Assembly: GCA_964036045.1 (NCBI GenBank)
Contig: OZ038379.1
Coordinates: forward strand, 82,732,562-82,796,561
Length of the DNA: 64,000 nt
Source: Eutreptiella sp. 'Long Island Sound 2002'
Taxonomy: Eukaryota > Euglenozoa > Euglenophyceae > Eutreptiales > Eutreptiaceae
Direction of reading: 5' to 3'
Shown: piece after piece, positions 3,061 through 32,945 of the stretch
Layout: each line of letters begins with the position of its first letter
How positions within the stretch are numbered: the stretch's first letter is position 1
Program-made: the position numbers and the translations under genes
The notes under the pieces: model-generated
Seen by the model: the letters and a program-made list of their open reading frames with translations, nothing else
What the model was told of the DNA's origin: nothing
The model's database searches: none

Positions 3061-3083
3061 TCAGACTTCAGACTTCAGACTTT
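3061..3083 (+). repeat. TCAGACT short tandem repeat
   Basis: Three abutting TCAGACT-type heptamers. An equivalent triplet occurs at 32333-32353, again beside a 72-bp array and a poly-C/poly-G repeat. Confidence 0.7.
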
Positions 3084-4934: not shown

Positions 4935-5050
4935 TACACATAGGGCACTCTTTTGTTACCTACCTCCCCCTTGAGGCGAGGAAGTCTGTCTTGGGTCTAG
5001 ACCACTGCGTCTCTGACCCAGACATTGGAGTTGGGCCTGCCCCACCACCC
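4935..5050 (+). repeat. direct repeat, left copy
   Basis: About 116 bp starting TACACATAGGGCACTC and ending near TTGGGCCTGCCCC, repeated at 6022-6137 with a constant offset of 1087 bp and no indels. The middle (CCTTGAGGCGAGGAAGT, TTGGGTCTAGACC) resembles the 88-bp array unit. Confidence 0.8.
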
Positions 5051-5070
5051 GCTACGCGCCGCAGTTTGCC

Positions 5071-6565: not shown

Positions 6566-6575
6566 CCCAGACAAC

Positions 6576-10050: not shown

Positions 10051-10081
10051 CATGACCCTGGCTCTGTGGAACATTGGACAG

Positions 10082-10110
10082 CCTAACCCTAACCCTAACC
10101 CTAACCCTAA
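10082..10110 (+). repeat. interstitial telomere-like CCCTAA tract, about 5 copies
   Basis: Perfect CCTAA(CCCTAA)n run just after the helicase stop codon. On this strand the motif reads as at a left chromosome end, so the DNA to its right would be the subtelomeric side. Confidence 0.9.
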
Positions 10111-11137
10111 TCAAGACTGAATATTGGGACCGAGATGGTGGGGGAGGGAACATCAACTATGACTGGTGAGGGACATCAAGAATGATTCACGGATTGATGG
10201 CTCTTGACAAAGTGGAATCGGCTTGCAGGTGAACCCCATCACCACGAGGCCCACTTTCAAGGCTTTTTGGACTTCTGAGGGGCCAAAATACCCCAAAATG
10301 GGCTCAAAATGGGCTCATTTCACCCGTTTGTGCACCCCAAATGGTCTAGGATGAGGTTTGGAAAAATGCGTTTTTGACCCATTTTTTACCCATTTTTGGT
10401 CCCAAAACAGCCCATTTCCAAGGCATTTTGGGATTTTCGGAGGACCAAGATGGGCCACCACAAGCTCAAAACGGTCCAAAAACACTTGTTTTAGCGTCGC
10501 ACATGGTCGAGGATCATTTTTGAGAAAAGTCATCTTTTTGCCCCTACTGGACCCTGTTGACCCATTTGGGCACCCACCTGTTTGGGCTTGAGCTCGCAGC
10601 TTGCCGCAACCTAGTGGGCCTAGGTATGGCGGTCTAGACGTCCATTTGGGCAATTTTGAGGGGTGGAAACCACAAAAAGTGGGGGGTTGCGGGTGGAGTA
10701 GGTGCCCTCGGAATCGCATTTTGATCCATGTAGCCAAAGATATGGCCTATTCTTGGTTTGTGGCTGTCGGCATTTGGAGCTTCTGGGGGCCTTTTTGGGC
10801 CGTTTCCACGACATATCATGGAGTTAGAGGGCCGCAAACAGCTCGTTGACATGGGGAAGTCAAGCCGCACGTGGAGTGTACCCACCGTTTCCCTTTGTTT
10901 GGCCGTTTTGAATGTGTTCCACGGCTTTTTAAGCCCAAAAATGGCTGTTTTTGGCCCTAAATTGCAGTTTTTGAAACTGAGGTCCGCCACTTGCGAATCC
11001 CGTTCTTGGCCGCCACCGTTGAGTTTCTTGCTCAAACTTTGTGTGATTGTACTTCACACCCATAGGTATCATCCACCAAAATTTCACCCGAATCCGAAGC
11101 ACCACGACGGAGTTCTGATTTTGGCCCATTTCGCGCG
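10111..11137. other. gene-free DNA between two telomere-like tracts
   Basis: No gene supported. About 10255-10570 contains an old tandem duplication of roughly 162 bp: CAAGGCTTTTTGG near 10258 versus CAAGGCATTTTGG near 10420, followed in both by GGTCTAGGATGAG- or GGTCGAGGATCATTTT-like sequence. The remainder has short runs such as CAAAATGGGCTC. Confidence 0.5.
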
Positions 11138-11190
11138 TGCTGCTTGCTTGCTGCTTGCTGCTTGCTGCTTGCTTGCTGCTTGCTTGCTAA
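11138..11190 (+). repeat. GCTTGCT/GCTGCTT microsatellite
   Basis: About 50 bp of alternating CTTG and CTG units, roughly 70 bp before the second telomere-like tract. Confidence 0.85.
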
Positions 11191-11258
11191 ACCTGGTAGG
11201 TCCACCCTAGACACTAAAAAGGGTTATAAAACCAAGACTGGTTCCACCAGCTCGGTGA

Positions 11259-11302
11259 CCCTAACCCTAACCCTAACCCTAACCCTAACCCTAACCCTAA
11301 CC
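11259..11302 (+). repeat. interstitial telomere-like CCCTAA tract, about 7 copies
   Basis: Forty-four bases of perfect CCCTAA repeat in the same orientation as the tract at 10082. It lies 360 bp before the large minisatellite. Confidence 0.95.
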
Positions 11303-14600: not shown

Positions 14601-17600
14601 TCCGTGAATTATTTACGCCCCTCCGTGAATTATTTGATGCCTCCGTGAATTATTTACGCCCCTCCGTGAATTATTTCACCCCTCCGTGAATTATTTACGC
14701 CCCTCCGTGAATTATTTGATGCCTCCGTGAATTCTTTACGCCCCTCCGTGAATTATTTGACCCCTCCGTGAATTATTGATGCCCCTCCGTGAATTATTTG
14801 ACCCCTCCGTGAATTATTTACGCCCCTCCGTGAATTATTTCACCCCTCCGTGAACTATTTATGCCTCTCCGTGAATTATTTCACCCCTCCGTGAATTATT
14901 TATGCCCCTCTGTGAATTATTTCACCCCTCCGTGAATTATTTACGCCAACCCGTGAATTTTTTGATGCCTCCGTGAATTATTTACGCCCCTCTGTGAATT
15001 ATTTCACCCCTCCGTGAATTATTTATGCCCCTCCGCGAATTATTTCACCCCTCCGTGAATTATTTACGCCCCTCCGTGAATTATTTCACCCCTCCGTGAA
15101 TTATTTATGCCCCTCGGTGAATTATTTCACCCCTCCGTGAATTATTTACGCCCCTCCGTGAATTATTTGATGCCTCCGTGAATTATTTATGCCCCTCCGT
15201 GAATTATTTGACCCCTCCGTGAATTATTTACGCCCCTCCGTGAATTTTTGATGCCTCCGTGAATTATTTACGCCCCTCCGTGAATTTTTTGATGCCTCCG
15301 TGAATTATTTACGCCCCTCCGTGAATTATTTGATGCCTCCGTGAATTATATTCGCCCCTCCGTGAATTATTTCACCCCTCCGTGAATTATTTACGCCCCC
15401 CCGTGAATTATTTGATGCCTCCGTGAATTATTTACGCCCCTCCGTGAATTATTTATGCCCCTCCGTGAATTATTTCACCCCTCCGTGAATTATTTACGCC
15501 CCTCCGTGAATTTTTTCACCCCTCTGTGAATTATTTATGCCCCTCGGTGAATTATTTCACCCCTCCGTGAATTATTTACGCCCCTCCGTGAATTATTTGA
15601 TGCCTCCGTGAATTATTTATGCCCCTCCGTGAATTATTTGACCCCTCCGTGAATTATTTACGCCCCTCCGTGAATTTTTTGATGCCTCCGTGAATTATTT
15701 ACGCCCCTCCGTGAATTATTTGATGCCTCCGTGAATTATTTACGCCCCTCCGTGAATTATTTCACCCCTCCGTGAATTATTTACGCCCCTCCGTGAATTA
15801 TTTGATGCCTCCGTGAATTCTTTACGCCCCTCCGTGAATTATTTGACCCCTCCGTGAATTATTGATGCCCCTCCGTGAATTATTTGACCCCTCCGTGAAT
15901 TATTTACGCCCCTCCGTGAATTATTTCACCCCTCCGTGAACTATTTATGCCTCTCCGTGAATTATTTCACCCCTCCGTGAATTATTTATGCCCCTCTGTG
16001 AATTATTTCACCCCTCCGTGAATTATTTACGCCAACCCGTGAATTTTTTGATGCCTCCGTGAATTATTTACGCCCCTCTGTTGAATTCTTTCACCCCTCC
16101 GTGAATTATTTATGCCCCTCCGCGAATTATTTCACCCCTCCGTGAATTATTTACGCCCCTCCGTGAATTATTTCACCCCTCCGTGAATTATTTATGCCCC
16201 TCGGTGAATTATTTCACCCCTCCGTGAATTATTTACGCCCCTCCGTGAATTATTTGATGCCTCCGTGAATTATTTATGCCCCTCCGTGAATTATTTGACC
16301 CCTCCGTGAATTATTTACGCCCCTCCGTGAATTTTTGATGCCTCCGTGAATTATTTACGCCCCTCCGTGAATTTTTTGATGCCTCCGTGAATTATTTATG
16401 CCCCTCCGTGAATTATTTGATGCCTCCGTGAATTATTTACGCCCCTCCGTGAATTATTTCACCCCTCCGTGAATTATTTACGCCCACCCGTGAATTATTT
16501 GATGCCTCCGTGAATTATTTACGCCCCTCTGTGAATTATTTCACCCCTCCGTGAATTATTTATGCCCCTCCGTGAATTTTTTCACCCCTCCGTGAATTAT
16601 TTACGCCCCTCCGTGAATTATTTGATGCCTCCGTGAAATATTTATGCCCCTCCGTGAATTATTTCACCCCTCGGTGAATTATTTATGCCCCTCCGTGAAT
16701 TATTTCACCCCTCCGTGAATTATTTACGCCCCTCCGTGAATTATTTGATGCCTCCGTGAATTATTTATGCCCCACCGTGAATTTTTTCACCCCTCCGTGA
16801 ATTATTTATGCCCCTCCGTGAATTATTTCACCCCTCCGTGAATTATTTACGCCCCTCCGTGAATTATTTCACCCCTCAGTGAATTATTTATGCCCCTCCG
16901 TGAATTATTTCACCCCTCCGTGAATTATTTATGCCCCCCCGTGAATTATTTGATGCCTCCGTGAATTATTTACGCCCCTCTGTGAATTATTCCACCCCTC
17001 CGTGAATTATTTATGCCCCTCCGTGAATTATTTCACCCCTCCGTGAATTATTTACGCCCCCCCGTGAATTATTTGATGCCTCTGTGAATTATTTATGCCC
17101 CTCCGTGAATTATTTCACCCCTCCGTGAATTATTTATGCCCCTCCGTGAATTATTTCACCCCCCCGTGAAATTTTTACGCCCCTCCGTGAATTATTTGAT
17201 GCCTCCGTGAATTATTTACGCCCCTCCGTGAATTATTTAACCCCTCCGTGAATTATTTATGCCCCTCCGTGAATTTTTTCACCCCTCCGTGAATTATTTA
17301 TGCCCCTCCGTGAATTATTTGATGCCTCCGTGAATTATTTCTGCCCCTCCGTGAATTATTTCACCACTCCGTGAATTATTTACGCCCCTCCGTGAATTAT
17401 TTCACCCCTCCGTGAATTATTTATGGCCCTCCGTGAATTATTTCACCCCTCCGTGAATTATTTACGCCCCTCCGTGAATTATTTCACCCCTCCGTGAATT
17501 TTTTATGCCCCACCGTGAATTATTTCACCCCTCCGTGAATTATTTATGCCTCTCCGTGAATTATTTCACCCCTCCGTGAATTATTTACGCCCCTCCGTGA

Positions 17601-20600
17601 ATTATTTCACCCCTCAGTGAATTGTTTATGCCCCTCCGTGAATTATTTGACCCCTCCGTGAATTATTTATGCCCCCCCCTGAATTTTTTGATGCCTCCGT
17701 GAATTATTTACGCCCCTCTGTGAATTATTCCACCCCTCCGTGAATTATTTATGCCCCTCCGTGAATTATTTCACCCCTCCGTGAATTATTTACGCCCCTC
17801 CGTGAATTTTTTGATGCCTCTGTGAATTATTTATGCCCCTCCGTGAATTATTTCACCCCTCCGTGAATTATTTATGCCCCTCTGTGAATTATTTCACCCC
17901 TCCGTGAATTATTTACGCCCCTCCGTGAATTATTTGATGCCTCCGTGAATTATTTACGCCCCTCCGTGAATTATTTGACCCCTCCGTGAATTATTTATGC
18001 CCCTCCGTGAATTATTTCACCCCTCCGTGAATTATTTACGCCCCTCCGTGAATTATTTGATGCCTCCGTGAATTATTTCTGCCCCTCTGTGAATTATTTC
18101 ACCACTCCGTGAATTATTTACGCCCCTCCGTGAATTATTTCACCCCTCCGTGAATTATTTATGGCCCTCCGTGAATTATTTCACCCCTCCGTGAATTATT
18201 TACGCCCTTCCGTGAATTATTTGATGCCTCCGTGAATTATTTACGCCCCTCCGTGAATTATTTGATGCCTCCGTGAATTATTTATGCCCCTCCGTGAATT
18301 ATTTGACCCCTCCGTTAATTATTTTTGCCCTTCCGTGAATCATTTGACCCCTCCGTGAATTATTTACGCCCCTCCGTGAATTATTTCAACCCTCCGTGAA
18401 TTATTTACGCCCCTCCGTAAATTATTCCACCCCTCCGTGAATTTTTTACGCCCCTCCGTGAATTATTTGACCCCTCCGTGAATTATTTATGCCCCTCCGT
18501 GAATTATTTCACCCCTCCGTGAATTATTTACGCCCCTCCGTGAATTATTTGATGCCTCCGTGAATTATTTATGCCCCTCCGTGAATTATTTCACCACTCC
18601 GTGAATATTTACGCCCCTCCGTGAATTATTTCACCCCTCCGTGAATTATTTATGGCCCTCCGTGAATTTTTTCACCCCTCCGTGAATTATTTACGCCCCT
18701 CCGTGAATTTTTTGATGCCTCCGTGAATTATTTATGCCCCTCCGTGAATTATTTGACCCCTCCGTGAATTATTTTTGCCCCTCCGTGAATTATTTGACCC
18801 CTCCGTGAATTATTTACGCCCCTCCGTGAATTATTTCACCCCTCCGTGAATTATTTACGCCCCTCCGTGAATTATTTCACCCCTCCGTGAATTATTTATG
18901 CCCCTCCGTGAATTATTTGATGCCTCCGTGAATTATTTATGCCCCTCCGTGAATTATTTCACCCCTCCGTGAATTATTTCACCCCTCCGTGATCTATTTA
19001 CGCCCCTCCGTGAATTATTTGATGCCTCCGTGAATTATTTATGACCCTCCGTGAATTATTTGACCCCTCCGTGAATTCTTTCACCCCTCCGTGAATTATG
19101 TATGCCCCTCCGTGAAATCTTTGATGCCTCCGTGAATTATTTACGCCCTCCGTGAATTATTTCACCCCTCCGTGAATTATTTATGCCCCTCCGTGAATTA
19201 TTTGATGCCTCCGTGAATTATTTACGCTTCTCCAGGAATCATTTGATGCCTCCGTGAATTATTTACGCCCCTCTGTGAATTATTTCACCCCTCCGTGAAT
19301 TATTTATGCCCCTCCGTGAATTATTTGACCCCTCCGTGAATTTTTCTTGCCTCTCCGTGAATTATTTCACCCCTCCGTGAATTATGTATGCCCCTCCGTG
19401 AATTTTTTGATGCCTCCGTGAATTATTTACGCCCCTCGGTGAATTATTTGACCCCTCCGTGAATTATTTATGCCCCTCCGTGAATTATTTCACCCCTCCG
19501 TGAATTATTTACGCCCCTCCGTGAATTCTTTCACCCCTCCGTGAATTATTTATGCCCCTCCGTGAATTATTTCACCCCTCCGTGAATCATTTATGCCCCT
19601 CCGTGAATTATTTCACCCCTCCGTGAATTATTTACGCTTCTCCGTGAATTATTTGATGGCTCCGTGAATTATTTACGCCCCTCCGTGAATTATTTGATGC
19701 CTCCGTGAATTTTTTATGCCCCTCCGTGAATTATTTCACCCCTCCGTGAATTATTTATGCCCCTCCGTGAATTATTTCAGCCTTCCGTGAATTATTTACG
19801 CCCCTCCGTGAATTATTTGATGCCTCCGTGAATTATTTACGCCCCTCCGTGAATTATTTCACCCCTCCGTGAATTATTTATGCCCCTCCGTGAATTATTT
19901 CACCCCTCCATGAATTATTTACGCCCCTCCGTGAATTATTTGATGCTTCCGTGAATTATTTACGCCCCTCCGTGAATTATTTCACCCCTCCGTGAATTCT
20001 TTACGCCCCTCCGTGAATTATTTCACCCCTCTGTGAATTATTTACGCCCCTCCGTGAATTTTTTCACCCCTCCGTGAATTATTTACGCCCCTCCGTGAAT
20101 TATTTGATGCCTCCGTGAATTGTTTACGACCCTCCGTGAATTTTTTGATGCCTCTGTGAATTATTTATGCCCCTCCGTGAATTATTTGACCCCTCCGTGA
20201 ATTATTTAAGCCCCTCCGTGAATTATTTAACCCCTCCGTGAATTATTTATGCCCCTCCGTGAATTATTTCACCCCTCCGTGAATTATTTACGCCCCTCCG
20301 TGAATTATTTCACCCCTCCGTGAATTATTTACGCCCCTCCGTGAATTATTTGATGCCCCTCCGTGAATTATTTACCACCCTCCGTGAATTATTTATGCCC
20401 CTCCGTGAATTATTTACGCCCCTCCGTGAATTATTTCACCCCTCCGTGAATTATTTATGCCTCTTCGTGAATTATTTCACCCCTCCGTGAATTATTTATG
20501 CCCCTCCGTGAATTATTTGATGCCTCCGTGAATTATTTATGCCCCTCCGTGAATTTTTTCACCCCTCCGTGAATTATTTACGCCCCTCCGTGAATTATTT

Positions 20601-23255
20601 GATGCCTCCGTGAATTATTTACGCCCCTCTTTGAATTATTTCACTTCTCCGTGAATTATTTATGCCTCTCCGTGAATTATTTCACCCCTCCGTGAATTAT
20701 TTATGCCCCTCCGTGAATTATTTGATGCCTCCGTGAATTATTTACGCCCCTCCGTGAATTATTTGACCCCTCCGTGAATTATTTATGCCCCTCCGTAAAT
20801 TATTTCACCCCTCCGTGAATTATTTACGCCCCTTCGTGAATTATTTCACCCCTCCGTGAATTATTTATGCCTCTCCGTGAATTATTTCACCCCTCCGTGA
20901 ATTATTTATGCCCCTCCGTGAATTATTTGATGCCTCCGTGAATTATTTACGCCCCTCTGTTGAATTCTTTCACCCCTCCGTGAATTATTTATGCCCCTCT
21001 GTGAATTATTTACCCCCCTCCGTGAATTATTTCACCCCTCCGTGAATTATTTGCGCCCCTCCGTGAATTATTTGATGCCTCCGTGAATTATTTACGCCCC
21101 TCCGTGAATTATTTCACCCCTCCGTGAATTATTTATGCCCCTCCGTGAATTATTTATGGCCCTCCGTGAATTATTTGACCCCTCCGTGAATTATTTACGC
21201 CCCTCCGTGAATTATTTGACCCCTCCGTGAATTATTTACGCCCCTCCGTGAATTATTTGATGCCTCCGTGAATTATTTACGCCCCTCCGTGAATTATTTC
21301 ACCCCTCCGTGAATTATTTCTGCCCCTCCGTGAATTATTTCACCCCTCTGTGAATTATTTGACCCCTCCGTGAATTATTTCACCCCTCCGTGAATTATTT
21401 ATGCCTCTCCGTGAATTATTTCACCCCTCCGTGAATTATTTATGCCCCTCCGTGAATTATTTCACCCCTCCGTGAATTTTTTACGCCCCTCCGTGAATTA
21501 TTTGATGCCTCCGTGAATTATTTACGCCCCTCCGTGAATTATTTGATGCCTCCGTGAATTATTTATTCCCCTCCGTGAATTATTTGACCCCTCCGTGAAT
21601 TATTTATGCCCCTCCGTGAATTGTTTGACCCCTCCGTGAATTATTTACGCCCCTCCGTGAATTTTTTGACCCCTCCGTGAATTATTTACGCCCCTCCGTG
21701 AATTTTTTGATGCCTCCGTGAATTATTTACGCCCCTCCGTGAATTATTTCACCCCTCCGTGAATTATTTATGCCCCTCCGTGAATTATTTGACCCCTCCG
21801 TGAATTATTTATGCCCCTCCGTGAATTATTTGACCCCTCCGTGAATTATTTACGCCCCTCCGTGAATTATTTCACCCCTCCGTGAATTATTTATGCCTCT
21901 CCGTGAATTATTTCACCCCTCCGTGAATTATTGATGCCCCTCCGTGAATCATATGATGCCTCCGTGAATTATTTACGCCCCTCCGTGAATTATTTCACCC
22001 CTGCGTGAATTATTTATGCCCCTCCGTGAATTATATCACCCCTCCGTGAATTCTTTATGCCTCTCCGTGAATTCTTTCACCCCTCCGTGAATTATTTACG
22101 CCCCTCCGTGAATTATTTCACCCCTCCGTGAATTTTTTATGACCCTCCGTGAATTATTTCACCCCTCCGTGAATTATTTATGCCCCTCCGTGAATTATTT
22201 CACCCCTCCGTGAATTATTTATGCCCCTCCGGGAATTATTTCACCCCTCCGTGAATTATTTATGCCTCTCCGTGAAATATTTCACCCCTCCGTGAATTAT
22301 TTACGCCCCTCCGTGAATTATTTGATGCCTCCGTGAATTATTTACGCCCCTCCGTGAATTATTTCACCCCTCCGTGAATTATTTATGCCCCTCCGTGAAT
22401 TATTTCACCCCTCCGTGAATTATTTACGCCCCTCCGTGAATTATTTCACCCCTCCGTGAATTATTTATGCCCCTCCGTGAATTATTTGATGCCTCCGTGA
22501 ATTATTTATGCCCCTCCGTGAATTATTTCACCCCTCCATGAATTATATATGCCCCTCCGTGAATTATTTGATGCCTCCGTGAATCATTTACGCCCCTCCG
22601 TGAATTTTTTCACCCCTCCGTGAATTATTTATGCCCCTCCGTGAATTATTTCACCCCTCCGTGAATTATTTACGCCCCTCCGTGAATTGTTTGATGCCTC
22701 CGTGAATTATTTACGCCCCTCCGTGAATTATTTCACCCCTCCGTGAATTTTTATGCCCCTCCGTGAATTATTTCACCCCTCCGTGAATTATTTACGGCCC
22801 TCCGTGAATTATTTCACCCCTCCTTGAATTATTTATTCCCCTCCGTGAATTTTTTGATGCCTCCGTGAATTATTTATGCCCCTCCGTGAATTATTTCACT
22901 CCTCCATGAATTATTTATGCCCCTCCGTGAATTATCTGATGCGTCCGTGAATTATTTACGCCCCTCTGTGAATTATTTCACCCCTCCGTGAATTATTTAT
23001 GCCCCTCCGTGAATTTTTTCACCCCTCCGTGAATTATTTTCGCCCCTCCGTGAATTATTTCACCCCTCGGTGAATTATTTATGCCCCTCCGTGAATTATT
23101 TGATGCCTCCGTGAATTATTTATGCCCCTCCGTGAATTATTTCACCCCTCCGTGAATTATTTATGCCCCTCCGTGAATTATTTGATGCCTCTGTGAATTA
23201 TTTATGCCCTCTCGTGAATTATTTGAGGCCTCAGTGAAATATTTCATCCCTCTTC
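11667..23255 (+). repeat. 11.6-kb minisatellite of 20/21-bp units
   Basis: Continuous tandem repeat of the core CCGTGAATTATTT followed by a short variable linker. The linkers fall into a few classes: CACCCCT, GACCCCT and GATGCCT (20-bp unit), and ACGCCCCT and ATGCCCCT (21-bp unit). By length there are about 550-570 units; they were not individually counted. Linker classes alternate in partly ordered patterns, giving higher-order structure. The array contains no long open frame, since the unit carries TGA and TAA-like stops in several frames. Degeneracy rises at the right edge, where units fade into the 88-bp array. Its size suits a subtelomeric or heterochromatic satellite. Confidence 0.97.
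14390..16396 (+). repeat. about 1,086-bp higher-order duplication inside the minisatellite
   Basis: Two successive blocks, about 14390-15310 and 15475-16396, share the same series of private variants at an offset of about 1086 bp. Examples are ACGCCAAC at 14943 and 16029, a CCGCGAATT unit near 15032 and 16117, and GAATTTTTGATG near 15243 and 16328. This points to unequal exchange or slippage after the units had diverged. Confidence 0.8.
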
Positions 23256-23279: not shown

Positions 23280-23985
23280 TGCCACTAACTTCACCAATCA
23301 GGTGAGGAAGTTGTCTGTGGTCTTGATAATAGCGTCTACGACCGAGATACCTGTACCTCCCCTGTGCTGGCCTCTGAGCTGGAGGAGTGGCCCCTTGGTC
23401 TCTGGCTGCAGCGCCTCAACCAGGGGCATCCCGCATTCCCCAACCCACCTACTGCTTGCCCTTGAGGCACAGAAGTTGGCCCTTGGTCCCTGGCCACAGC
23501 GCCGCGACCACGGTCATTAGCCGTCCCCCCACCCACACACTGCAGGCCAGCGAGCCGCAGGAGTTGGCCATTGGTCCTTGGCCGCCGCGCCTCGACCTCG
23601 GTCGTCGTCCATACCCCACCACAACCACTGCAGGCCGCCGAGACGCAGGAGTTCGCCCTTGGTCCTTGGCCGCCGCGCCTCGACCTCGGTCGTCGTCCAT
23701 ACCCCACCACAACCACTGCAGGCCGCCGAGCCGCAGGAGTTCGCCCTTGGTCCTTGGCCGCCGCGCCTCGACCTCGGTCGTCGTCCATACCACACCACAA
23801 CCACTGCAGGCCGCCGAGGTGCAGGAGTTCGCCCTTGGTCCTTGGCTGCCGCGCCTCGACCTCGGTCGTCGTCCATCCCTCACCCCTCCCCAGCTACTGC
23901 TAGCCCTTGAGGCGCAGAAGTCTGCCCTTGGTCCCCGGCCGTTGCGCCTCGACCAGGGTCTACGTTCATACCACGCGGTGGCATC
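23280..23985 (+). repeat. 88-bp tandem array upstream of the oxygenase/USP/hAT element
   Basis: About eight units. The central ones are exactly 88 bp apart (GGCCGCCGAG at about 23633, 23721, 23809; relatives near 23369, 23457, 23545, 23897). Unit landmarks are GCCGCAGGAGTTCGCCC, TTGGTCCTTGG and CGCCTCGACC. The family and period match the array at 6.14-6.57 kb. It lies between the minisatellite and the first ORF of the element. Long frames on both strands across it are artefacts of the period. Confidence 0.9.
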
Positions 23986-24175
23986 AAGTGGGCCCGCGCA
24001 GGAACCCAAGGAGGAAGCAGCCTACCACTTCGAGTATCGGGGTCCGGGACCAGATTGTCCTCCTGAGTTGTGGTCACCAACAAGTGCCCATCGAAATGCA
24101 CCTTGTGGACCACGCAAGAGCCCACAACCTTTAACCGTGCTGAGGCAGCCTCCTACAAATGGCCCAGCATCCTGA

Positions 24176-25173
24176 ATGGCCCCCATGGGACACCATGGAA
24201 GCTGCCCAGATGAAAATGGGATTCCGTCTAGCCCTCGGCGAGGAAGGGTGGCACCAGAACAGGAGGCCATCTATTATATGAAGTTGGCAATGTACATGGG
24301 GACATCTTCCCTTGATGTCGTCCATACCCATGGACTTGCAGCACTGTGCCGCCTGATGTACAGCCAGAGGGCAGTCCAAAGTGCACGCGGGAGGATGGAG
24401 GTGTTGTTGTGGAGTACCAGAAGGTAGCCTCAGGCCTCTGGGACCGGATAAAAAAGTATGAGGAAGACCGTGGGAAAGTGGGGAGTCGACGAGGGGCCAT
24501 TGGTGGACACCCCATGAGCGTTAGCAAAGTTGCTTGGCTAGAGGCATGGGATGACATTGTGTATGCCTTGCCACTTGTGGACTCATGGCCTTTCTGGAGA
24601 GGGGAGACCAAGTACCTCACACCCACTATGGAGAGGATGTATGTGGAGAAAGTACGGAGAGTACCCTTGGGCACAATGCAGTACTTTTGGCCACAGGCAG
24701 CAAGTGCAGCACGGCCATTCACAAGTGATTTGGTGGCATCTGTGAGCTGCCGGAACTCACTGTTGCCGGCCAACGGGGAGGGATCGAAAGCACAGGGGAC
24801 CCCAGGATCCGGGGGTGGTCGACAAAGAGTGTCAGCGCCAGCCGGTGGCACAGGTCCCCCTGGCCAGGGGACCCCTGGATCGGGGGGTAGTCGACGGAGC
24901 TCCCTGTTGCCCGAAAGCTCAACGTCCACTTGCAGTCCCGGACCTCAACCCAACATCCCACCCAATGCAGCACCTATGACGGTGCGGCAGACAGCAACAG
25001 TTCGACCAAGCACTGATGACAACGTGCCATGGCATTGCCCGGTGTGTCCGCATTGCGATGCAAGGCTTGGGGGAGCAACGGCGGGACCCCCTGTCAGAGG
25101 AGAGCCTCGTGGCTGCCTATACAGTGGGACGCCACTTTGCAGAGTCCATGCGGATTCCCATGCAAGAGCGTAG
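24176..25173 (+). CDS. first ORF region of the oxygenase/USP/hAT element, unknown protein
   Basis: The best reading is the frame 24346-25173, with no certain ATG. It carries a charged, plausibly globular segment (ASGLWDRIKKYEEDRGKV; SKVAWLEAWDDIVYAL; LTPTMERMYVEKVRRVPL), followed by a Gly/Ser/Pro-rich linker. Around 25016-25264 the better sequence moves to another frame (LSEESLVAAYTVGRHFAESM), and near 25205-25230 to a third (YLHAGVRVVNNAWTDDAGEEAMELL). The region therefore has frame breaks. I do not recognise the family. It stands between the 88-bp array and the oxygenase ORF on the same strand. An alternative is a spliced N-terminus of the downstream protein. Confidence 0.4.
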
Positions 25174-25284
25174 CGATGTGATACTGAGGTGCACCCCTTT
25201 TCAGCCCCGAGGTACCCCGCAACCACTTGGGATACCTGCATGCTGGTGTCCGTGTGGTGAATAATGCATGGACAGATGATGCAG

Positions 25285-25652
25285 GGGAAGAGGCCATGGA
25301 GCTTCTATTGGAAGCCATGGCAGACGCTTGGGTGCAACCCCCCCCCCCCCAAGGACCCCCGACACCTGACCAAGATCCCCCCAGAGGCGATCCAAGCCAG
25401 TCCGACGTCCTAGCCTTGGCGCTGCGACTCGGATCCCAAGATGCATCTGTCGGTGTCTGTCGGTACGCCCAACGAAGCATGTGCTATGCACCTGGAAGGG
25501 GGCACAAAGGAGGCCATAGCCACAGTTGGCACCCTTGGTGAAGCACAGCAACCCCCCCCCCCCCCCTCTGCCTCCACTCCTATGACTGCTGACCAGGATC
25601 CCCGCAGAGGTGATCCAAGTGCGTCCAACGTCCCAGCCTGTGCGCTGCGATG
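25285..25652 (+). repeat. about 215-bp internal duplication with long C runs
   Basis: Two diverged copies (about 25285-25436 and 25500-25652) each have GAGGCCAT, then a C run of 14 or more, then GACC.AGATCCC, AGAGG.GATCCAAG and GCGCTGCGA. Translated, both give a DQDPxRGDPSxS-type peptide, but in different frames, which is consistent with slippage in the C runs. Confidence 0.65.
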
Positions 25653-25947
25653 TGGACCCCCAGGTGCACCCGAAGTTGCAGGTGGTGTGCATGCTGACGA
25701 TGAGGACCAGGGCCGAGAGGTAATGGAGAACATAGGGCCAGGTGCTGCAGAAGAATGCCTCACCCCACACCCCGGTTGCGGTGCTGAGTCACTCTCTGAT
25801 CAGGGATCCCCTGTTCCCCTAGCACAGCGCCCACCACAGGTTTCATTGAGTGGGCAAGATAGTGAAATGGCATCCCCAGATATGGATAGCAGTATGGGGA
25901 CGGCATGCACTGTTGTGGCACCTAGTCAGTCCAGCACAGATGGCTAA
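25441..25947 (+). CDS. Pro/Gly/Asp-rich low-complexity ORF
   Basis: Open frame of 168 codons with acidic, Pro/Ser-rich composition, no recognisable domain and probably disordered. It continues the frame family of the upstream ORF region and ends in TAA at 25945-25947, 36 bp before the oxygenase ATG. It is more likely the tail of a frame-shifted upstream protein than an independent gene. Confidence 0.3.
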   Translation: MHLSVSVGTPNEACAMHLEGGTKEAIATVGTLGEAQQPPPPPSASTPMTADQDPRRGDPSASNVPACALRCGPPGAPEVAGGVHADDEDQGREVMENIGPGAAEECLTPHPGCGAESLSDQGSPVPLAQRPPQVSLSGQDSEMASPDMDSSMGTACTVVAPSQSSTDG

Positions 25948-25983
25948 GAGCCATGTAACAGCCCCCCCTCAGGCAAGAAAGCA

Positions 25984-27258
25984 ATGCCTAGGGATCCCAA
26001 CCCCATGCCTGCTGCAAAGCGTGTGCGGCTAGGGGCGGATGGGGCCGCAGCAATGGACTGTGACAATCCTAACCAGAAGGTTGAGGTGGATAAAATCAAG
26101 GCTCCTGCCGGTAGGGAGCTGCCTACCATCCGGCAACTGAAGTTACGGTTGGCACGTGATGAGTATGTCGCCGGTGCATGTTTTTTTTATGCAACTGCCC
26201 TCAGCCTCCATGCGCTCCGCAGAGAGACCCCCTTAACTGGAGTGGACCTCCGAGTCCAGGCAACCACAATGTACAGGGAACGGTGTGGGATAGAGGTTAA
26301 GGAGAGTGCTCTAAGTGTTTGTAGGGCCCTGGAAGCGAATAATTGGGAAGGGAAGCCCTGGGGGGGAAAGCCCGACCATTTTCGACATCTCGCCCACCAC
26401 ATCGATGGGAAGGTTGTGTTGTTGCATACAAACACACACAAAATAATGGATTCAAGGTTTGACCCGGACACTGCTGTGACGTCTGCTGCAGTTTGGAGTC
26501 CGGGTATGGGAGAAGCCAAAGTGTACCATACGATCCAGGAGATGGAGGAAGCCTGTGAACAAGCATGCGTGATGGTCGTTGGTGAGGCCGAACGTGATGG
26601 GCTGCGGCCGGGAGGACATTACCGGGGCGCCGGCTACGGCCGCTCGTTGCAGGTAGCACCTTTGTGTGTCTTGCATGGCATAATGGGGACACTGCTGTAC
26701 ACTGAGACGTTAGGGCAGTTCTCCTTGCGAAGGTTGCAGTTGGGTGTCGGGGGGAGCAAAGGACATACAGCGAAACGGGATTGTCGCCGGTCGCGGCTTG
26801 TGCAAGGGACACAGGAGCATGGCCCCCTTGTGATGATGGTGAACCGCATTGCAAGGAAGCCGGTACCAAAGTGGTTCACATGGACTACAATACAGCTGTC
26901 ATGCAATGAGACGACAGCTCCCCATCAACATCGTTTTGATAGTAGCCCGTGGTCAGTAGTGTTCTCCACGGGGCGGCACGTGGGTGGTGAGATCTGGGTG
27001 GAAGAGGGAGGCGTTGGCAGTGGTCCACGTGGCAGACCAGGGAGAAGGCAGTGCCCAGATGGCATTAGCCGTCCGGGGCATAGGTACCGTGTCGATAGAC
27101 AACCTATAGTGGTGCGCACTGGGGCATGGCATGCTACTTGCCCATGGAAGGGGGATAGGCGATTGGTGGTGCTTTACGGCCGTGGAGAGTGGCAGAGTTT
27201 GCCTGCTTCGCACCGCAAGTTCTTGCAGCAACATGCCTTCCGCCTGCCTGCAGGTTAG
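25984..27258 (+). CDS. TET/JBP-like Fe(II)/2-oxoglutarate oxygenase with an N-terminal cysteine-peptidase-like region
   Basis: Predicted 424-residue nuclear protein; ATG 25984, TAG 27258. Residues about 305-405 match the double-stranded beta-helix of TET/JBP oxygenases, which oxidise 5-methylpyrimidines in DNA: NETTAPH at about 308-314, GGEIWVEEGG near 331, WHAT with His383, and Arg392/393 followed by LVVLY, the usual place for the 2-oxoglutarate-binding Arg. The metal-binding HxD reads H314-Q-H316, with an Asp only at 319, so activity is uncertain. The N-terminal third has GACFFYATALSLHA (Cys near 66) and GGHY (His near 210), reminiscent of an OTU/papain-fold peptidase; this is weak. There is no signal peptide. 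It ends 41 bp before the likely ATG of the USP ORF; CAG/GTTAGT at its stop could be a splice donor. A prolyl-hydroxylase-like relative is the main alternative. Confidence 0.65.
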   Translation: MPRDPNPMPAAKRVRLGADGAAAMDCDNPNQKVEVDKIKAPAGRELPTIRQLKLRLARDEYVAGACFFYATALSLHALRRETPLTGVDLRVQATTMYRERCGIEVKESALSVCRALEANNWEGKPWGGKPDHFRHLAHHIDGKVVLLHTNTHKIMDSRFDPDTAVTSAAVWSPGMGEAKVYHTIQEMEEACEQACVMVVGEAERDGLRPGGHYRGAGYGRSLQVAPLCVLHGIMGTLLYTETLGQFSLRRLQLGVGGSKGHTAKRDCRRSRLVQGTQEHGPLVMMVNRIARKPVPKWFTWTTIQLSCNETTAPHQHRFDSSPWSVVFSTGRHVGGEIWVEEGGVGSGPRGRPGRRQCPDGISRPGHRYRVDRQPIVVRTGAWHATCPWKGDRRLVVLYGRGEWQSLPASHRKFLQQHAFRLPAG

Positions 27259-27298
27259 TGGCGGTCCGCAAGGTGGAGCACGGCAACGGCCATGCGGC

Positions 27299-28282
27299 AT
27301 GGCGAACCCCCCAAGTCACAATTGGTGTTGGCTTGGTTCAACGTTGCAATGCCTCCTGCTAGCCTCTGGGGGACAGGAGGCCTTCCATGATGAGTGCCCA
27401 GATGATGTGGTGGTGTGGGCTACATGTTGGGTTGACATTGTGGCACGTATGACAGGTGCTGTGTACCGTCCACATGCCGTTGCACGCCTGCTGGCGGATG
27501 AGGGACAGCCAACTGTTACTCTGTGCCAGTGTAGTGGTCAGTGTCATTGTGTCAGGAGGGCTCCCAAGTTTGAGTGGATGCAGCAGTCCGAGATGGCTGA
27601 GTGTTGGAAGCACATGGTACCGAAACTGGTTTGTGCTGGTGTTCGTTCTCTGTCGGACTGCTTGTCTCATGAGCAATGGTGGCAGCGGTGCCCAGTGTGT
27701 GACGTGAAAGTCCACCAGGCTGGAGGTGAGTTGGGAATGCCCGCCCAAGTCCTGCATGTTGCTAACCAGGCCCAGAGCGTGCGGGTGCGAATGAGGGAGG
27801 GAATGAGGGGCCGTTCGTTGGGCCGCCCTTCAAACGCCCCCCCATGTGGCTGTGGGGGGGATCTCCAGGAGGCCATTGTACTATCGTCACTAGTGTTCAA
27901 CAAGTGGGCTCCACTCCATGTCCACAACCAACAGCTTCATAGCTTGACGGTGGATCATGAGTTTGTGGATATCAATGGGTACCATTGGTCCCTTCGGGCC
28001 ATGGTGCTACATGTTGGACCAACTAGGGAGCAAGGGCACTTTATTGCTCACATTTTAGTTCGCGATGTGTGGTGGTTGTGTGATGATGCGTCCGTGAGCA
28101 GGGGACGGCCCCCAGCCACTTCACGAAAGGTGACATTCCTATTGTATGAGCGTACTCCCACGGAGATGGTGGGTCTGGGCGGTTCACAAAGCAATCGTGG
28201 TGTACGTGATGGCCCCCCTCAGTGTGTAGCAACAACTGTCGACAGGCATGCACGGAGCATGCCAAGTATCACCCCGTTGTGA
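27299..28282 (+). CDS. USP (C19)-type deubiquitinase-like protein
   Basis: The chosen start, ATG 27299, places the Cys box at the N-terminus; the frame is open upstream to 27131 without a better ATG. The Cys box reads HNWCWLGSTLQCLLLA with Cys10, matching the NTCYLNSxLQxL signature, though the Asn after Leu is Gly. Cys-rich pairs (CQCSGQCHC; CPVC) resemble the USP zinc-binding fingers. The His box is GHFIAHI (His247), followed by WWLCDDASV and later VTFLLYER, the canonical end of the fold. Length is about 327 residues, normal for a minimal USP domain. It would remove ubiquitin from nuclear or cytosolic substrates. A TGA at 28280-28282 ends it inside a 132-bp repeat; the frame stays open beyond that to 28588. 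Confidence 0.75.
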   Translation: MANPPSHNWCWLGSTLQCLLLASGGQEAFHDECPDDVVVWATCWVDIVARMTGAVYRPHAVARLLADEGQPTVTLCQCSGQCHCVRRAPKFEWMQQSEMAECWKHMVPKLVCAGVRSLSDCLSHEQWWQRCPVCDVKVHQAGGELGMPAQVLHVANQAQSVRVRMREGMRGRSLGRPSNAPPCGCGGDLQEAIVLSSLVFNKWAPLHVHNQQLHSLTVDHEFVDINGYHWSLRAMVLHVGPTREQGHFIAHILVRDVWWLCDDASVSRGRPPATSRKVTFLLYERTPTEMVGLGGSQSNRGVRDGPPQCVATTVDRHARSMPSITPL

Positions 28283-28480
28283 GCCATGGCGCTGGCAACA
28301 GGTGACCCAGAGTCTACCAACCACATTGGGGACGCACAACCCTCCCCCTCACAGTTTGCAACACCAACTCTCAACAGGCATGCCCCGAGCGTGCCAAGTA
28401 ACACCCGGTTGCCAGCCATGGCGCTGCCAACAGGTGACCCCGGATATGCCACACATGTGGGGGATGTGCAGCCCACCCCC
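28217..28480 (+). repeat. 132-bp in-frame tandem duplication at the USP C-terminus
   Basis: ACAGGCATG recurs at 28242 and 28374, followed in both copies by a GAGC.TGCCAAGTA-like stretch, CCATGGCGCTG.CAACAGG and TGACCC. The offset of 132 bp equals 44 codons. The first copy has TGA (28280-28282) where the second has CCA, so the stop looks secondary. Confidence 0.85.
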
Positions 28481-28588
28481 GAGTTTATTGAAGCTGTGGC
28501 AAAGTTTACAAAAGCACAGGGTGCGGGTGAAACAGCATCTGTAGGTCCGTGTGCAAGCCCACCAGGCTCATCTCCGGGCACGTCATGA
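28283..28588 (+). CDS. in-frame extension of the USP ORF beyond TGA
   Basis: The same frame stays open for about 100 codons after the TGA: MALATGDPES, a second repeat copy with RLPAMALPTGDP, then FIEAVAKFTKAQGAGE. It ends at TGA 28586-28588, overlapping the hAT frame. It may be a separate small ORF, a readthrough extension, or the former C-terminus of the USP protein cut off by a nonsense change. Confidence 0.35.
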   Translation, partial: AMALATGDPESTNHIGDAQPSPSQFATPTLNRHAPSVPSNTRLPAMALPTGDPGYATHVGDVQPTPEFIEAVAKFTKAQGAGETASVGPCASPPGSSPGTS

Positions 28589-28622
28589 GAAGGAGTGGGA
28601 TGAGAGGCATGCAGGTCAGGGC

Positions 28623-31600
28623 ATGTCACACCGGTCTGTTTCCGAGTCCATAGAACAAGATAGAGCCCGATCTGCTGCATTGGCAGCAACGGGGAGCAAT
28701 GCTTTTTCTGTGATGATGGGGGCAGCCCCCAGGCAACAGACAGCAGGGCCAAAGACACTGCAAGCGTTTGTGGATGAGCATTGGCAGTTGCGGTTCACTG
28801 TTCACGGGGGAGTAATGTGCATATGTTGTTCATGGGCTGCTGAAACGGATTGTCCTGGGGTGAAGCGGCCACCGAAGGCTGCTGCAGCCCTGGTGAATGG
28901 GACATATGGCATGGGCATGCGTATGATGATTGCTACACCAAAGGGATGGCGTAAAGATGTCCTGGAGGGTCACCTTGGTGTGGCACGTGGCACGACCAGA
29001 AGCCGCAAGAAAATTGATAATCCTGGCCGCCACCACTTGGCCGCTGAGGAGAGTTTCCGGGTGCATTGTGCAGAACGTTTTCGGGCACTGTGCCCCAGTG
29101 CATCTGCATCTGCATTTGCAGTCAATGTGGCAGAGAGGAGCATTGTGTTCATTAGGGGTGAGGGCATGGACCTCGGTGGACCTATGAGCGATGCGGTGGC
29201 AGCCATTTTGTCGCGCTTGGTGGAGGTGTATATTGGCCTCCGCATGTGCACATCCATCCGTGCAATCAGTGAACGCATTCTTCTGCATTGTGCGTTTACC
29301 TCCGACCCGGGCCATCATGCCTCTCGGCGATGGATAGTTGAGAGGGCCATGGTCGCAATGCATGGCGCCATGCAAGATGGTGTGTCAGAGACCTTGCAAA
29401 GGGCATTGTTCATTGCCTTGTTGTTGGATGGATCTGACCGGCAACGGCATCGCATCAATGAGTATGCCATCCTGCTCCTCTTTCCAGGCACTGGGCCAGG
29501 GGGAATGTGTGAGGTGTTCCTTGGTGTGGTGGATGTGGCTTCAGGGGAGGCACAAGAGGTGACGGCACAGGTGGAGGCAGTGCTGCTGTCCCGGATGCCT
29601 GATCGTGCCTGGTGGGCTCAGAAGGTTGTGGCTTTTGCGGTGGATGGTGCCTCTAACCTTGGTGTGCGTGGTGCCACTGCAAGGCAAGCTGTTGATGTGT
29701 CGGCAATGGAGCACAATGTGTTTGCCATGCTTGTGAAGTGGCTGTCCTTGCTAACCCCCTTGGGTGAGCCATGCCATGTGGTCCAGCGCAAGCTAGCCCT
29801 TGCCTTGGAGGCTGCCGGCCAAGTGCATGCTGACTACCTGGCAGCTGTGGGTCGCCAACGTGCATTGTACAACGGTGCGCGGCAGTGGAAGGACCTCGAG
29901 AGGTGTGTCCAAGAGAACACCAGACCAGAGACACGCAGCAGGTTGCGTCGGATCCCTGCTAGTCACCGTATCCGGTGGTCCGAGGCAAATGCCCGTCGCA
30001 ACAAGGTGTTCTTGGCCAATGTGCCATGGGTGGCGAGGCATTTGGATTCCAAAACGCACCTCCCCACCAAGGAGGAGGATGTGTGGGAGGATTGCCATGA
30101 TGCAGGTTTGCTGTCATGGGCAGTGGTATATGGGGACATACTACATGGTACGCGCAGCTTCAACAACGTTGCACAGTTGCATGCACCAACAGGTGCCCAC
30201 TTGACTAAGGCCACCGAAATGTTACAGGCACGGGTGGAAATGGTGGCGAGGGAGGAGGGGCCAGGGTGGACTCAATTCAAAGAGCAAACTTTGACAGGTG
30301 CATGGCATGGCGTTGAATTGGTCCGGTTTGATGCCGATGGCCAGAGGTGCACAACCAGCCCCCCTTTTCCAGCCACAGAGGCACGGGCAGTCACAGACAC
30401 ACTGCTTGCTGGCATCAGGGAGGGACAGGGTACCATTGACCCCCGGGGTGTTCTTGAGTGTGCTGTGTTGCTTGACCACGGCCGTTGGCTCGCTCTACCA
30501 GCGGCTGATCGAGCCACATTTGGAGTGGATCTGCTGAAGCAGTTCATGGGCACACACCATGCTGAACTGGCAGCTGCGCATGTTAATGCTGCTCGTGCAT
30601 TGGAAGAGTGGGAATCCTTCAAGGAGCATGTCGTTCGGACCTTCGCCAAGACCCCCATGTCCTGCATGTGGGAGGCCTTGACGCCGGAGCGGGAGCATGT
30701 CCAATGGGTGAATGTTTGGCGTGTTTTGGCATTGCTGCGCACATATTGCCCTGCTGAGGCTGCTGTTGAGCGTGCCATTTCGTTGCGTGGGAGGTTCACC
30801 AACAGTATGCATGATATGGAGGACACACATGTCCTTAGCATGTGCATGGCTTTGCATTGTAATCTGCCACCTTTGCGGCAGTGGGCGAAGGGGCAGGGTG
30901 TCGAGGTAGCCAGCAAGCTGGCAGCCAATGCACGCTTCGATGTGCGTCCCCGGCATAGGGTTTCGCATCCGATTGATCCACGTACATCAGTGGAAGCGGC
31001 CATGTTGCAGTGCCTGGAAGGGGAGGCTGCAGTGGCAGACGATGGTGACATTTTGCCATCTTTTGGGGGGTCGGAAGTGCCACTGGCTTGTCAAGGCGCA
31101 ACACGCAGACGCGCTGACCGACAAGCCCCGTCTGAGCACACTGAGGGCACTTTGGTCGAACCAGATGGTAGTCCTGCTCAGCATGGTGGCAACCATGACT
31201 TCTTCACTTTCCGAAGGGGCATGGACTGTGCAATGTGCAGGCAATCTGTGCGCATCTGGTGCAACACATGTCTGGTTTGCCATACACCCTTCGTCAAGGA
31301 TCCAAGACCGTGTGGTGAGGCAGTGGTGCAGGTTGTGGATGATTCAGCTGAGGCTGCTGAAAACAATAGTGAAGAGGAGGCAGTGGCACCACGGAAGTCC
31401 GACCCAAAGCGTGCCTTGGCCCGTGCACAGGCCAAGTTGGTTTGTGCTGCAAAATCAGGCACATTGCGTGACTCGACACGCGCTCGCATCTGTGATTGCT
31501 TGGCAAGCATGGGTGTGAAGGTGCCAAATAGCAAGACCCGGGGAGACGCCCGAGAACTTGCTATGCAAGAGTTGTTGCCTTTGCTAGCCCAGATGGACTG

Positions 31601-31820
31601 TGACTCGGTCCCCCCAACGGATCGTGTTACCCGTTCTGCCGCACCTCCCAGCAGCTCACAACCATGTTCCCAAGTGCCGGTGGATGACATGGACGGACTC
31701 ATTGATGAAGGACCGTGTTGGGGTTGCAGTGGTATTGTGCTTTTGCATGCCTGCTGTGCCAATTCCCATGTTCTCCTTCTCTGCAGGTCCATTGATACAT
31801 TAGCAAGCATCAGTATGTAA
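28623..31820 (+). CDS. hAT-like transposase, intact
   Basis: Cut-and-paste DNA transposase of hAT-like type, 1065 codons from ATG 28623 (MSHRSVSE) to TAA 31818-31820; the frame is open upstream to 28551 without ATG. The N-terminus has a BED/TTF-like zinc-finger candidate (VMCICCSWAAE with a downstream His). The RNase H-like core has LLLDGSD (Asp near 269), FAVDGASN (Asp near 341), a CHVVQRKLALA segment at the usual CxxH/HRLALA place, and RIRWSEA. The C-terminal dimerisation helix reads AEAAVERAISLRGRF with LSMCMALHCN (Glu near 716). After it comes a Cys cluster (DCAMCRQ; CNTCLVCH, about 31220-31285) like the zinc ribbons at transposase C-termini. It is uninterrupted over 3.2 kb, which implies selection or recent activity. 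No clear 8-bp target duplication was found. It is distant from classical Ac/hobo. Confidence 0.85.
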   Translation: MSHRSVSESIEQDRARSAALAATGSNAFSVMMGAAPRQQTAGPKTLQAFVDEHWQLRFTVHGGVMCICCSWAAETDCPGVKRPPKAAAALVNGTYGMGMRMMIATPKGWRKDVLEGHLGVARGTTRSRKKIDNPGRHHLAAEESFRVHCAERFRALCPSASASAFAVNVAERSIVFIRGEGMDLGGPMSDAVAAILSRLVEVYIGLRMCTSIRAISERILLHCAFTSDPGHHASRRWIVERAMVAMHGAMQDGVSETLQRALFIALLLDGSDRQRHRINEYAILLLFPGTGPGGMCEVFLGVVDVASGEAQEVTAQVEAVLLSRMPDRAWWAQKVVAFAVDGASNLGVRGATARQAVDVSAMEHNVFAMLVKWLSLLTPLGEPCHVVQRKLALALEAAGQVHADYLAAVGRQRALYNGARQWKDLERCVQENTRPETRSRLRRIPASHRIRWSEANARRNKVFLANVPWVARHLDSKTHLPTKEEDVWEDCHDAGLLSWAVVYGDILHGTRSFNNVAQLHAPTGAHLTKATEMLQARVEMVAREEGPGWTQFKEQTLTGAWHGVELVRFDADGQRCTTSPPFPATEARAVTDTLLAGIREGQGTIDPRGVLECAVLLDHGRWLALPAADRATFGVDLLKQFMGTHHAELAAAHVNAARALEEWESFKEHVVRTFAKTPMSCMWEALTPEREHVQWVNVWRVLALLRTYCPAEAAVERAISLRGRFTNSMHDMEDTHVLSMCMALHCNLPPLRQWAKGQGVEVASKLAANARFDVRPRHRVSHPIDPRTSVEAAMLQCLEGEAAVADDGDILPSFGGSEVPLACQGATRRRADRQAPSEHTEGTLVEPDGSPAQHGGNHDFFTFRRGMDCAMCRQSVRIWCNTCLVCHTPFVKDPRPCGEAVVQVVDDSAEAAENNSEEEAVAPRKSDPKRALARAQAKLVCAAKSGTLRDSTRARICDCLASMGVKVPNSKTRGDARELAMQELLPLLAQMDCDSVPPTDRVTRSAAPPSSSQPCSQVPVDDMDGLIDEGPCWGCSGIVLLHACCANSHVLLLCRSIDTLASISM

Positions 31821-31829
31821 CGCTTTCCC

Positions 31830-32310
31830 AGTTCCCTTGGTTTTCCCTTTTCCCACATTTTCCCCAACGCCCCATTTTCCAAGAGGTATGGGTGTTTTTT
31901 TGGGGGGGGGGGGTACTTGTGCCACATTGTTCCCAGAATTGCCTTTTCCGCATTTTCAAACCCCGTTTTCCCCCCAACCCAACCCATCATTTTCTTGAAC
32001 TGAATGGTTGTGTGTTTTGGGGGCGGGGCCTTGTATCAGACTTTTCCTAGTGTTCCCTTCTCCACATTTTCCATTCCAACCCATTTTCCCTGACGCACAA
32101 TTTTCCCGAGGTGAAGTTCCTGTGTGTCTATGGGGGGTGGGGTATTGCACTTTTATCCCCATTTTCCTGTGAAGTTGCTATGTGTCTTGGGGGGGGGTCT
32201 GCACTGTTATAACCATTTTCCTGAACTCAAGTTCCTGTGTGTGTGGGGGGGGGGGGGCTGCACTTTTGCACTTTTATCAGACTTTTGCTTGGATGTGCTC
32301 TAATGTGGGT
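31830..32310 (+). repeat. poly-G-bearing tandem repeat downstream of the transposase
   Basis: Five or six diverged units of about 70-90 bp, each with CATTTTCC, GAAGTTCCTGTGTGT or a variant, then a G run of 7-14 and TTTTATC. It is the reverse complement family of 3.09-3.40 kb. It begins about 10 bp after the transposase stop codon, so it may be the 3' end of the element. Confidence 0.7.
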
Positions 32311-32332
32311 CCGCAACACGACATGCCAAATC

Positions 32333-32353
32333 AGACTTCAGACTTCAGACTTT
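32333..32353 (+). repeat. TCAGACT short tandem repeat
   Basis: Three TCAGACT-type heptamers in the same orientation as 3061-3083, at the junction between the poly-G repeat and the 72-bp array. Confidence 0.7.
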
Positions 32354-32359
32354 ATACCC

Positions 32360-32945
32360 ATACCTGTGGTACATATCGCCGCGCCCCATGGAGACATGGT
32401 TTCGGAGGCTGCGGTGATCCCTTACAGCATGTTGACCATGATACATATCAAGGCAACCCATGAAGACATGGTTTCAGAGTTGCGGCGATCCCTTGCAAGC
32501 TGTAGACCATGGTACATATCATCGCAAACCCTGCATACATGGTTTTAGGGAACACAATGATACCCTACACTTTGTGGACCATATTACATATCACCGAAGC
32601 CCCTGCATACATGCTTTTAGGGGTTGTGATGATGTCATGGACAATGCAGGCCATGGTAGGTATCACCATAGCTCCTAGCTCCTAGCTTTGCACCTGCGGT
32701 GATGCCGTACACCTTCCAGATCATGATACGTTTCACAGCAGCCCTAGGAGACCCGGTTTCAAGGGCTGCGGGGACCCTTTACACCTTGTAGACAGTGGTA
32801 CATATCACAGCAGCCCATGGAGACATGGTTTCAAGGCCTTTTGTGCTCCTTCACACCTTGTAGACCATCCTACATAGGACCGCGCTCCTTGGATACATGG
32901 TTTCGGAGGCCGTAGTAATACCCCACACCTTGTAGACCATCATGC
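32360..32945 (+). repeat. 72-bp tandem repeat array
   Basis: About eight diverged units with CCATGGAGACATGGTTTC, GCTGCGGTGATCCCTTACA and TTGTAGACCATG. The array stops at 32.945 kb and resumes at 33.466 kb on the far side of a non-repeat insert. Confidence 0.8.

Follow-up and report, generated by a model that had tools for sequence, protein, structure and literature searches.

A giant, high-copy, hAT-like transposon in Eutreptiella probably links two putative deubiquitinases, a TET/JBP-like domain and a helicase

Do transposons beyond fungi and animals fight silencing that works through ubiquitin and base modification? Direct counter-measures against hosts that are encoded by transposons are known from few groups, and a 64,000-bp stretch of the genome of the euglenophyte Eutreptiella sp. 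'Long Island Sound 2002' (contig OZ038379.1, positions 82,732,562 to 82,796,561; hereafter the window) makes the question testable. We read the window as probably containing one decayed copy of a giant (20–35 kb), high-copy, hAT-like cut-and-paste transposon. This element, which has terminal inverted repeats (TIRs) and hundreds of ends in the genome, links two probable deubiquitinases, one of them fused to the transposase, with an oxygenase-like domain and a helicase. A first-pass annotation of the same DNA had proposed a hAT-like transposon carrying a TET/JBP-like oxygenase and a USP-like deubiquitinase; it missed the helicase gene in the left part and the OTU-like domain that precedes the TET-like domain.

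Where does the element begin and end? In the window the transposon spans positions 3031–32366 (29,336 bp). When the 3' flanks of 20 other transposase copies are aligned to the window, the alignment stops at about 32366, and the right end falls within 8 bases of the same point in 19 of them, the remaining copy (L028) being truncated. The reverse complement of this right end, CAGCTATGGGTATA, matches the window exactly only once, at 3031, and the 8 bases flanking the window copy are identical on both sides (TGGTACAT). Outside the element the flanks join as a single 72-bp repeat array. The 88-bp array to the left and the G-rich repeats to the right, which the first-pass annotation took as the limits of the element, are both present; neither is a terminus, because the ends map elsewhere, and the interval given in that annotation amounts to about 29% of the element. 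The subterminal CAGACTT repeats at the two ends are direct, both sets having the same orientation.

Exact 8-bp duplications flank all seven copies in which both ends were read, that is, the window copy and six others (AGGAGACG, GGGGGGGT, CTCTGGTC, GTATGCAC, GTGATCAA and GTTTGCCA), the latter picked as copies on C1 or C2 for which both termini could be found. The second of the six, flanked by GGGGGGGT, has the terminus CATAGCTT rather than CATAGCTG. Three more left ends were read (L060–L062, right ends not included). The seven complete copies measure 20.4, 25.3, 27.0, 28.1, 29.3, 32.5 and 34.7 kb; this variation of up to 14 kb is likely due to the length of an internal satellite array. Across the genome (2,280,300,865 bases in 2205 contigs), the 20-mer at the left end occurs 555 times (248 + 307), against 0 + 0 for the control.

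Do the genes travel together? We scored 42 transposase copies out of 1979 initial candidates, 84 copies of the open reading frame (ORF) that joins an OTU-like to a TET/JBP-like half (OTU-TET; out of 4399) and 57 of 66 helicase matches, nine fragments having been dropped. Left ends were compared at 100 of the 555 places (those on C1 and, up to 99.25 Mb, on C2; the left-end region), and all linkage counts are lower bounds. For at least 26 of the 42 transposases an OTU-TET on the same strand is listed in the 8 kb upstream, and for none is one listed in any of the other three arrangements; the distance is 2775–2836 bp in 24 of the 26 listed pairs and 5004 and 7857 bp in the other two. Helicases in the left-end region have a left end 4.4–5.4 kb upstream in at least 10 of 14 cases and none otherwise within 60 kb. 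For OTU-TET copies in that region, a left end lies upstream within 60 kb in at least 15 of 20, with one left end found downstream on the same strand and one upstream on the opposite strand; for transposases there, at least 7 of 8 have a left end upstream, and one has a left end upstream on the opposite strand. Among the 57 helicases, at least 29 have an OTU-TET and at least 19 a transposase downstream within 60 kb, and none has either in another arrangement. On the opposing side, among the copies listed 16 of the 42 transposases have no OTU-TET partner, 54 of the 84 OTU-TET copies have no upstream helicase, and for 5 of 20 OTU-TET copies the 60 kb upstream contain no exact left end; these missing partners arise at least partly because the counts are lower bounds.

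The same arrangement recurs in a diverged second subfamily, with a transposase (P0037) 66% identical and an OTU-TET protein (P0012) 54% identical. Here an OTU-TET (105 listed) lies 2363–2401 bp upstream of at least 26 of 42 transposases, with none arranged otherwise. Some of the open frames in this subfamily run to 1578–1635 amino acids (their letters were not read), a length that fits, as expected, a fusion of USP and transposase. The ORFs thus recur together in other copies, the check set by the first-pass annotation, in both subfamilies and with the same minimum count.

The three plus-strand ORFs that the first-pass annotation described are found at 25948–27258, 27110–28282 (with an ATG at 27299, 40 bp past the first stop) and 28545–31820. 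They are not three separate intact genes. The first is cut by an in-frame TAA at 25945–25947 and is unbroken and longer in the relatives P0001 (512 amino acids) and P0002 (559 amino acids). The USP Cys box and the transposase share one frame of 1530–1536 amino acids in 12 of 20 copies, broken in the window, and CWLG is found in 12 of the 20 longest frames. The transposase, USP and TET-like ORFs are more than chance open frames, being under purifying selection in frame. The pooled ratio of nonsynonymous to synonymous polymorphism (pN/pS) is 0.47 for the transposase (20 copies; 0.87 and 1.05 in shifted frames), 0.37 for the USP (18 copies; 0.84 and 1.63) and 0.28 for the TET-like domain (6 copies; 0.82 and 0.98).

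What are the two halves of the OTU-TET protein? The N-terminal half carries the series GACFF..WGG..GGHYRG, which we take to resemble OTU proteases, and an OTU identity is probable on this pattern together with a profile comparison in hhalign (score 19.74, E-value 0.021; 3 of 200 column shuffles score as high, and the alignment is without the His end). In the C-terminal half, the motif WTTIQLSCN..TAPHQH..GGEIWVEEGG..WHAT..GDRRLVVLY is collinear with seven reference proteins, namely L064 from this genome and six relatives from phages that it retrieved, one of them annotated PF12851; the portion of this motif cited in the first-pass annotation is present as quoted, as are the USP Cys and His boxes. 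The distal residues are kept (H395 in 13 of 13 sequences, R404 in 10 of 11, R405 in 11 of 11) and collinear in hhalign, and we infer that H395 and R404/R405 are the functional distal His and the 2-oxoglutarate-binding Arg. The profile comparison scores 19.4 (E-value 0.037; reversed, 14.7), 2 of 200 column shuffles score as high, and a TET/JBP identity for this half is probable as well.

Several results weigh against these two assignments. Profile support is only marginal for both halves: the highest score among 16 transposase windows is 17.3 against 19.7 for the OTU comparison and 18.7 against 19.4 for the TET-like one, which with L064 alone gives an E-value of 0.086. Neither Pfam OTU nor Pfam Tet_JBP matches any of the element proteins searched; of the 50 Pfam OTU matches genome-wide, none comes as close as 3 kb to any of the 84 OTU-TET copies listed, and the one place in the genome that matches PF12851 (L064) is not a listed element copy. 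The ORF yielded nothing relevant in a PDB sequence search and nothing useful in Pfam, NCBIfam or PHROGs, and its structure model (mean predicted local distance difference test score, pLDDT, 34.8) is too poor to use. For the OTU-like half, pN/pS is 0.54 (6 copies; 1.02 and 0.66 in shifted frames), a weak contrast with few changes in the six-copy set. Lastly, the Asp of the HxD motif, present in all seven reference proteins, occurs in 0 of the 14 aligned element sequences that cover the site (11 have HxH, 10 of them HQH). With no Pfam match, a marginal profile comparison and this Asp missing, the TET/JBP part of the first-pass annotation is not supported as it was put and, in Pfam, fails the profile test that the annotation itself set. 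Canonical TET chemistry is in doubt chiefly because this Asp is lost, and oxygenase activity of the domain is uncertain.

The element may be real with a TET-like half that is related to the 2-oxoglutarate oxygenases but inactive, retained only as a module that binds DNA or modified bases, so that only the deubiquitinases are enzymes. This reading, a serious possibility that stops short of being probable, accounts for the altered HxD site (HxH in 11), the retained distal His and Arg and the low in-frame pN/pS; a three-His iron site is possible, however, and the kept distal His and Arg look like an active pocket. In another reading, the USP–transposase polypeptide and its OTU/oxygenase-like partner, with a three-histidine metal site acting on or reading modified bases (5-methylcytosine, or the base J pathway of Euglenozoa), would form an anti-silencing kit directed at both protein and DNA marks, which we consider unlikely as a whole. 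Base J occurs in Euglena, and the kinetoplastids are relatives of Euglena. In kinetoplastids, base J is the product of a TET/JBP enzyme, according to PMC12730594.

Two further sets of matches in the genome touch on these domains. L064 (G000:C2034:19243-19665), where the genome search with Pfam Tet_JBP had its single hit, is a phage-like 2-oxoglutarate oxygenase sequence on a 49-kb contig that may derive from an endogenous giant virus; viral contigs searched with it gave no match. Several equal-scoring OTU matches in different places, C1:440842, C19:27082917 and C21:18478716 among them, suggest that there is a further repeat family with an OTU domain.

The USP domain can be placed more firmly. 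It passes the Pfam UCH cut-off (E-value 2.8e-8; 34.1 bits against 23.9) with a match that covers the His-box end only. P0049 and P0066 pass the cut-off too, P0061 does not, and the earlier assignment to the C19 family holds. How might such genes serve a transposon? The transposase would bind the TIRs and subterminal repeats, cutting and pasting the element, while its N-terminal USP might deubiquitinate either the transposase or the chromatin at the element, with stabilization or anti-silencing as the outcome. The separate OTU-TET protein would supply another deubiquitinase, together with a module that modifies or binds bases and so keeps copies accessible, and the helicase may aid repair or copying of so long an element. 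These genes may have an anti-silencing role. Alternatively, the deubiquitinases could play no part in silencing and serve transposition only, by stabilizing the transposase or releasing it from the strand-transfer complex. The fusion of USP to transposase agrees with this, and PMC9741609, in the part bearing on the matter, raises the shielding of transposition proteins from degradation by transposon deubiquitinases; a linked TET-like domain would, however, be left unexplained. We regard this alternative as possible but, on balance, doubtful.

To which superfamily does the transposase belong? Its motifs LDGS (D295), VDGAS (D367) and ER..S (E742), in that order, are ones that we take to resemble those of hAT transposases. 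TIRs of hAT elements as a rule begin with CAG, and here the short TIR starting with CAG, CAGCTATGGGTATA, is found at both ends, alongside the 8-bp duplication in 7 of 7 pairs of flanks. Against the assignment, no transposase family appears among the Pfam matches of 11 members at E-values up to 1, a PDB sequence search gave no relevant match, NCBIfam and PHROGs offered nothing useful, and the structure model (mean pLDDT 30.7) is too poor to use; a transposase profile found no relatives in IMG/VR and GTDB contigs. We retain only the label hAT-like because the likeness of motifs was judged by eye and no hAT profile matches; of the first-pass classification, the hAT-type duplication and TIR stand and a profile match is missing. 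The transposase might instead come from another superfamily with 8-bp duplications, for example Zisupton (KDZ group), which would leave the absence of a hAT match in Pfam unsurprising. In Pfam, however, no other transposase family matches either, KDZ included, the terminal CAG and the order of the three motifs look hAT-like, and the transposase motifs differ from those of KDZ elements; such an origin is quite unlikely. Zisupton does make 8-bp duplications and KDZ transposons carry TET/JBP, according to the portion of PMC12730594 that treats them, and the element here resembles them in having both an 8-bp duplication and TET/JBP-like cargo.

Does the left part belong to the same element? The window helicase matches Pfam AAA_12 (7.9e-10), and that of copy L063 matches AAA_11 (5.3e-14) with the Walker A motif GGAGTGKS, which makes the gene a superfamily 1 (SF1) helicase, of the SF1B, UPF1/DNA2-like kind. 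The 7.8 kb of L063 align with the window at 96% over 3077–4752, 89% over 4928–6843 and 95% over 6240–10110, and the alignment resumes at 11260 and runs into a 41-bp satellite; the helicase, the 88-bp array, the telomere-like tract and the satellite therefore belong to the element. Of five other copies whose upstream DNA was read, four contain this satellite and L043 is arranged differently; L063 contains it as well. In the public protein P0023, helicase sequence runs into a TET-like region, as internal deletion of one element would be expected to produce. That separate elements or host genes became nested by chance is highly improbable, and refuted in practice: the window is repeat-rich and one copy sits in the apparent transposase of another, but order and strand are constant across copies, the duplications are exact, OTU-TET and transposase are linked in two subfamilies, and the alignment with L063 begins near the left end, crosses the helicase and extends as far as the satellite. 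The nested copy, G000:C2:99217112-99245206, seems to be inserted there on the evidence of its flanking letters. The 1.15-kb stretch between the two telomere-like tracts (10110–11258) is missing from L063, and may be an insertion in the tract or a deletion in L063.

How does the element compare with known ones? TET-bearing hAT7 transposons have been described in rust fungi (Kojima 2025, PMC12730594), so TET on hAT is already in print; of the full combination, we found no report in the literature searched, and the first-pass annotation knew of no description of its own set on a hAT-like element. In the account given there, the Puccinia hAT7 elements likewise unite a hAT-class transposase and a TET/JBP domain in one element; they differ in their 7-bp duplications (here 8-bp) and their rust-fungal hosts, the HxD motif being altered here, and the words ubiquitin, protease and OTU are absent from the paper's main text. 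OTU and VTD deubiquitinase domains occur on Helitrons and Helentrons, according to the relevant passages of PMC9741609 and PMC6431247. These too are mobile DNA that encodes deubiquitinase-type domains and a helicase, whereas they rely on a rolling-circle RepHel and not on a transposase with TIRs, target duplication and a fused USP. The giant transposons of PMC6431247 are similar in size class and in carrying extra genes, and the word hAT is absent from that paper's main text. ToxhAT of wheat pathogens, 14 kb with its cargo as given in PMC12506042, is about half the size of the element described here. The search covered open-access papers, not Repbase reports or subscription journals, and among them we recognized no description of this gene set or of a comparable giant hAT.

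Features of the element in the window (positions in the 64,000-bp stretch; a dot marks features without strand)
Feature	Position	Strand	Remarks
Left target-site duplication TGGTACAT	3023..3030	.	identical to 32367-32374
Left TIR CAGCTATGGGTATA, 14 bp	3031..3044	+	exact reverse complement of right end in most other copies
Subterminal CAGACTT x3	3062..3082	+	orientation matches right-end set
Subterminal inverted repeat	3246..3385	+	pairs with 32083-32210; 76% over 142 columns, E-value 1.9e-26
Left ORF, Pro-rich, no assigned function	5017..6116	+	disrupted in window; single 365-amino-acid frame in copy L063
First 88-bp tandem array	6152..6567	+	
SF1 (UPF1/DNA2-like) helicase gene, interrupted	6570..10050	+	start approximate; longest frame 7663-10050
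Telomere-like hexamer tracts	10082..11302	.	10082-10110 and 11258-11302
41-bp minisatellite array	11668..23244	.	about 282 units, 11.6 kb
Second 88-bp tandem array	23464..23884	+	
285-amino-acid frame, no assigned function	24316..25173	+	no Pfam or NCBIfam match
OTU-TET ORF	25414..27258	+	split in window by TAA at 25945-25947
OTU-like domain	26119..26652	+	Cys78 in 12/12, WGG box, His224 in 18/20 (boxes assigned by eye)
TET/JBP-like domain	26800..27255	+	H326-Q-H328, GGEIW, W394-H395, R404/R405
USP (C19-like) domain	27299..28282	+	Cys box NWCWLGSTLQCLL (by eye) and His box
hAT-like transposase	28545..31820	+	candidate D295, D367, E742
Subterminal inverted repeat	32083..32210	-	pairs with 3246-3385
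Subterminal CAGACTT x3	32332..32352	+	direct relative to left-end set
Right TIR	32353..32366	-	13/14 bases in window copy
Right target-site duplication TGGTACAT	32367..32374	.	within 72-bp repeat array

A few observations concern the surroundings. The G+C fraction across the window is 0.43–0.63. The 72-bp array that hosts the insertion occupies 32367–34381 and 2894–3028, with related units inverted at 575–1059, and a 100-bp tandem array lies beyond the element at 44731–45028. Elsewhere in the genome, a 24-base stretch that we take to be part of the Euglena gracilis spliced leader has 3283 exact matches on both strands (1601 + 1682), against 0 for the reversed control; those listed on C1 are dispersed, not in one array, and are perhaps retro-inserted copies of spliced mRNA.

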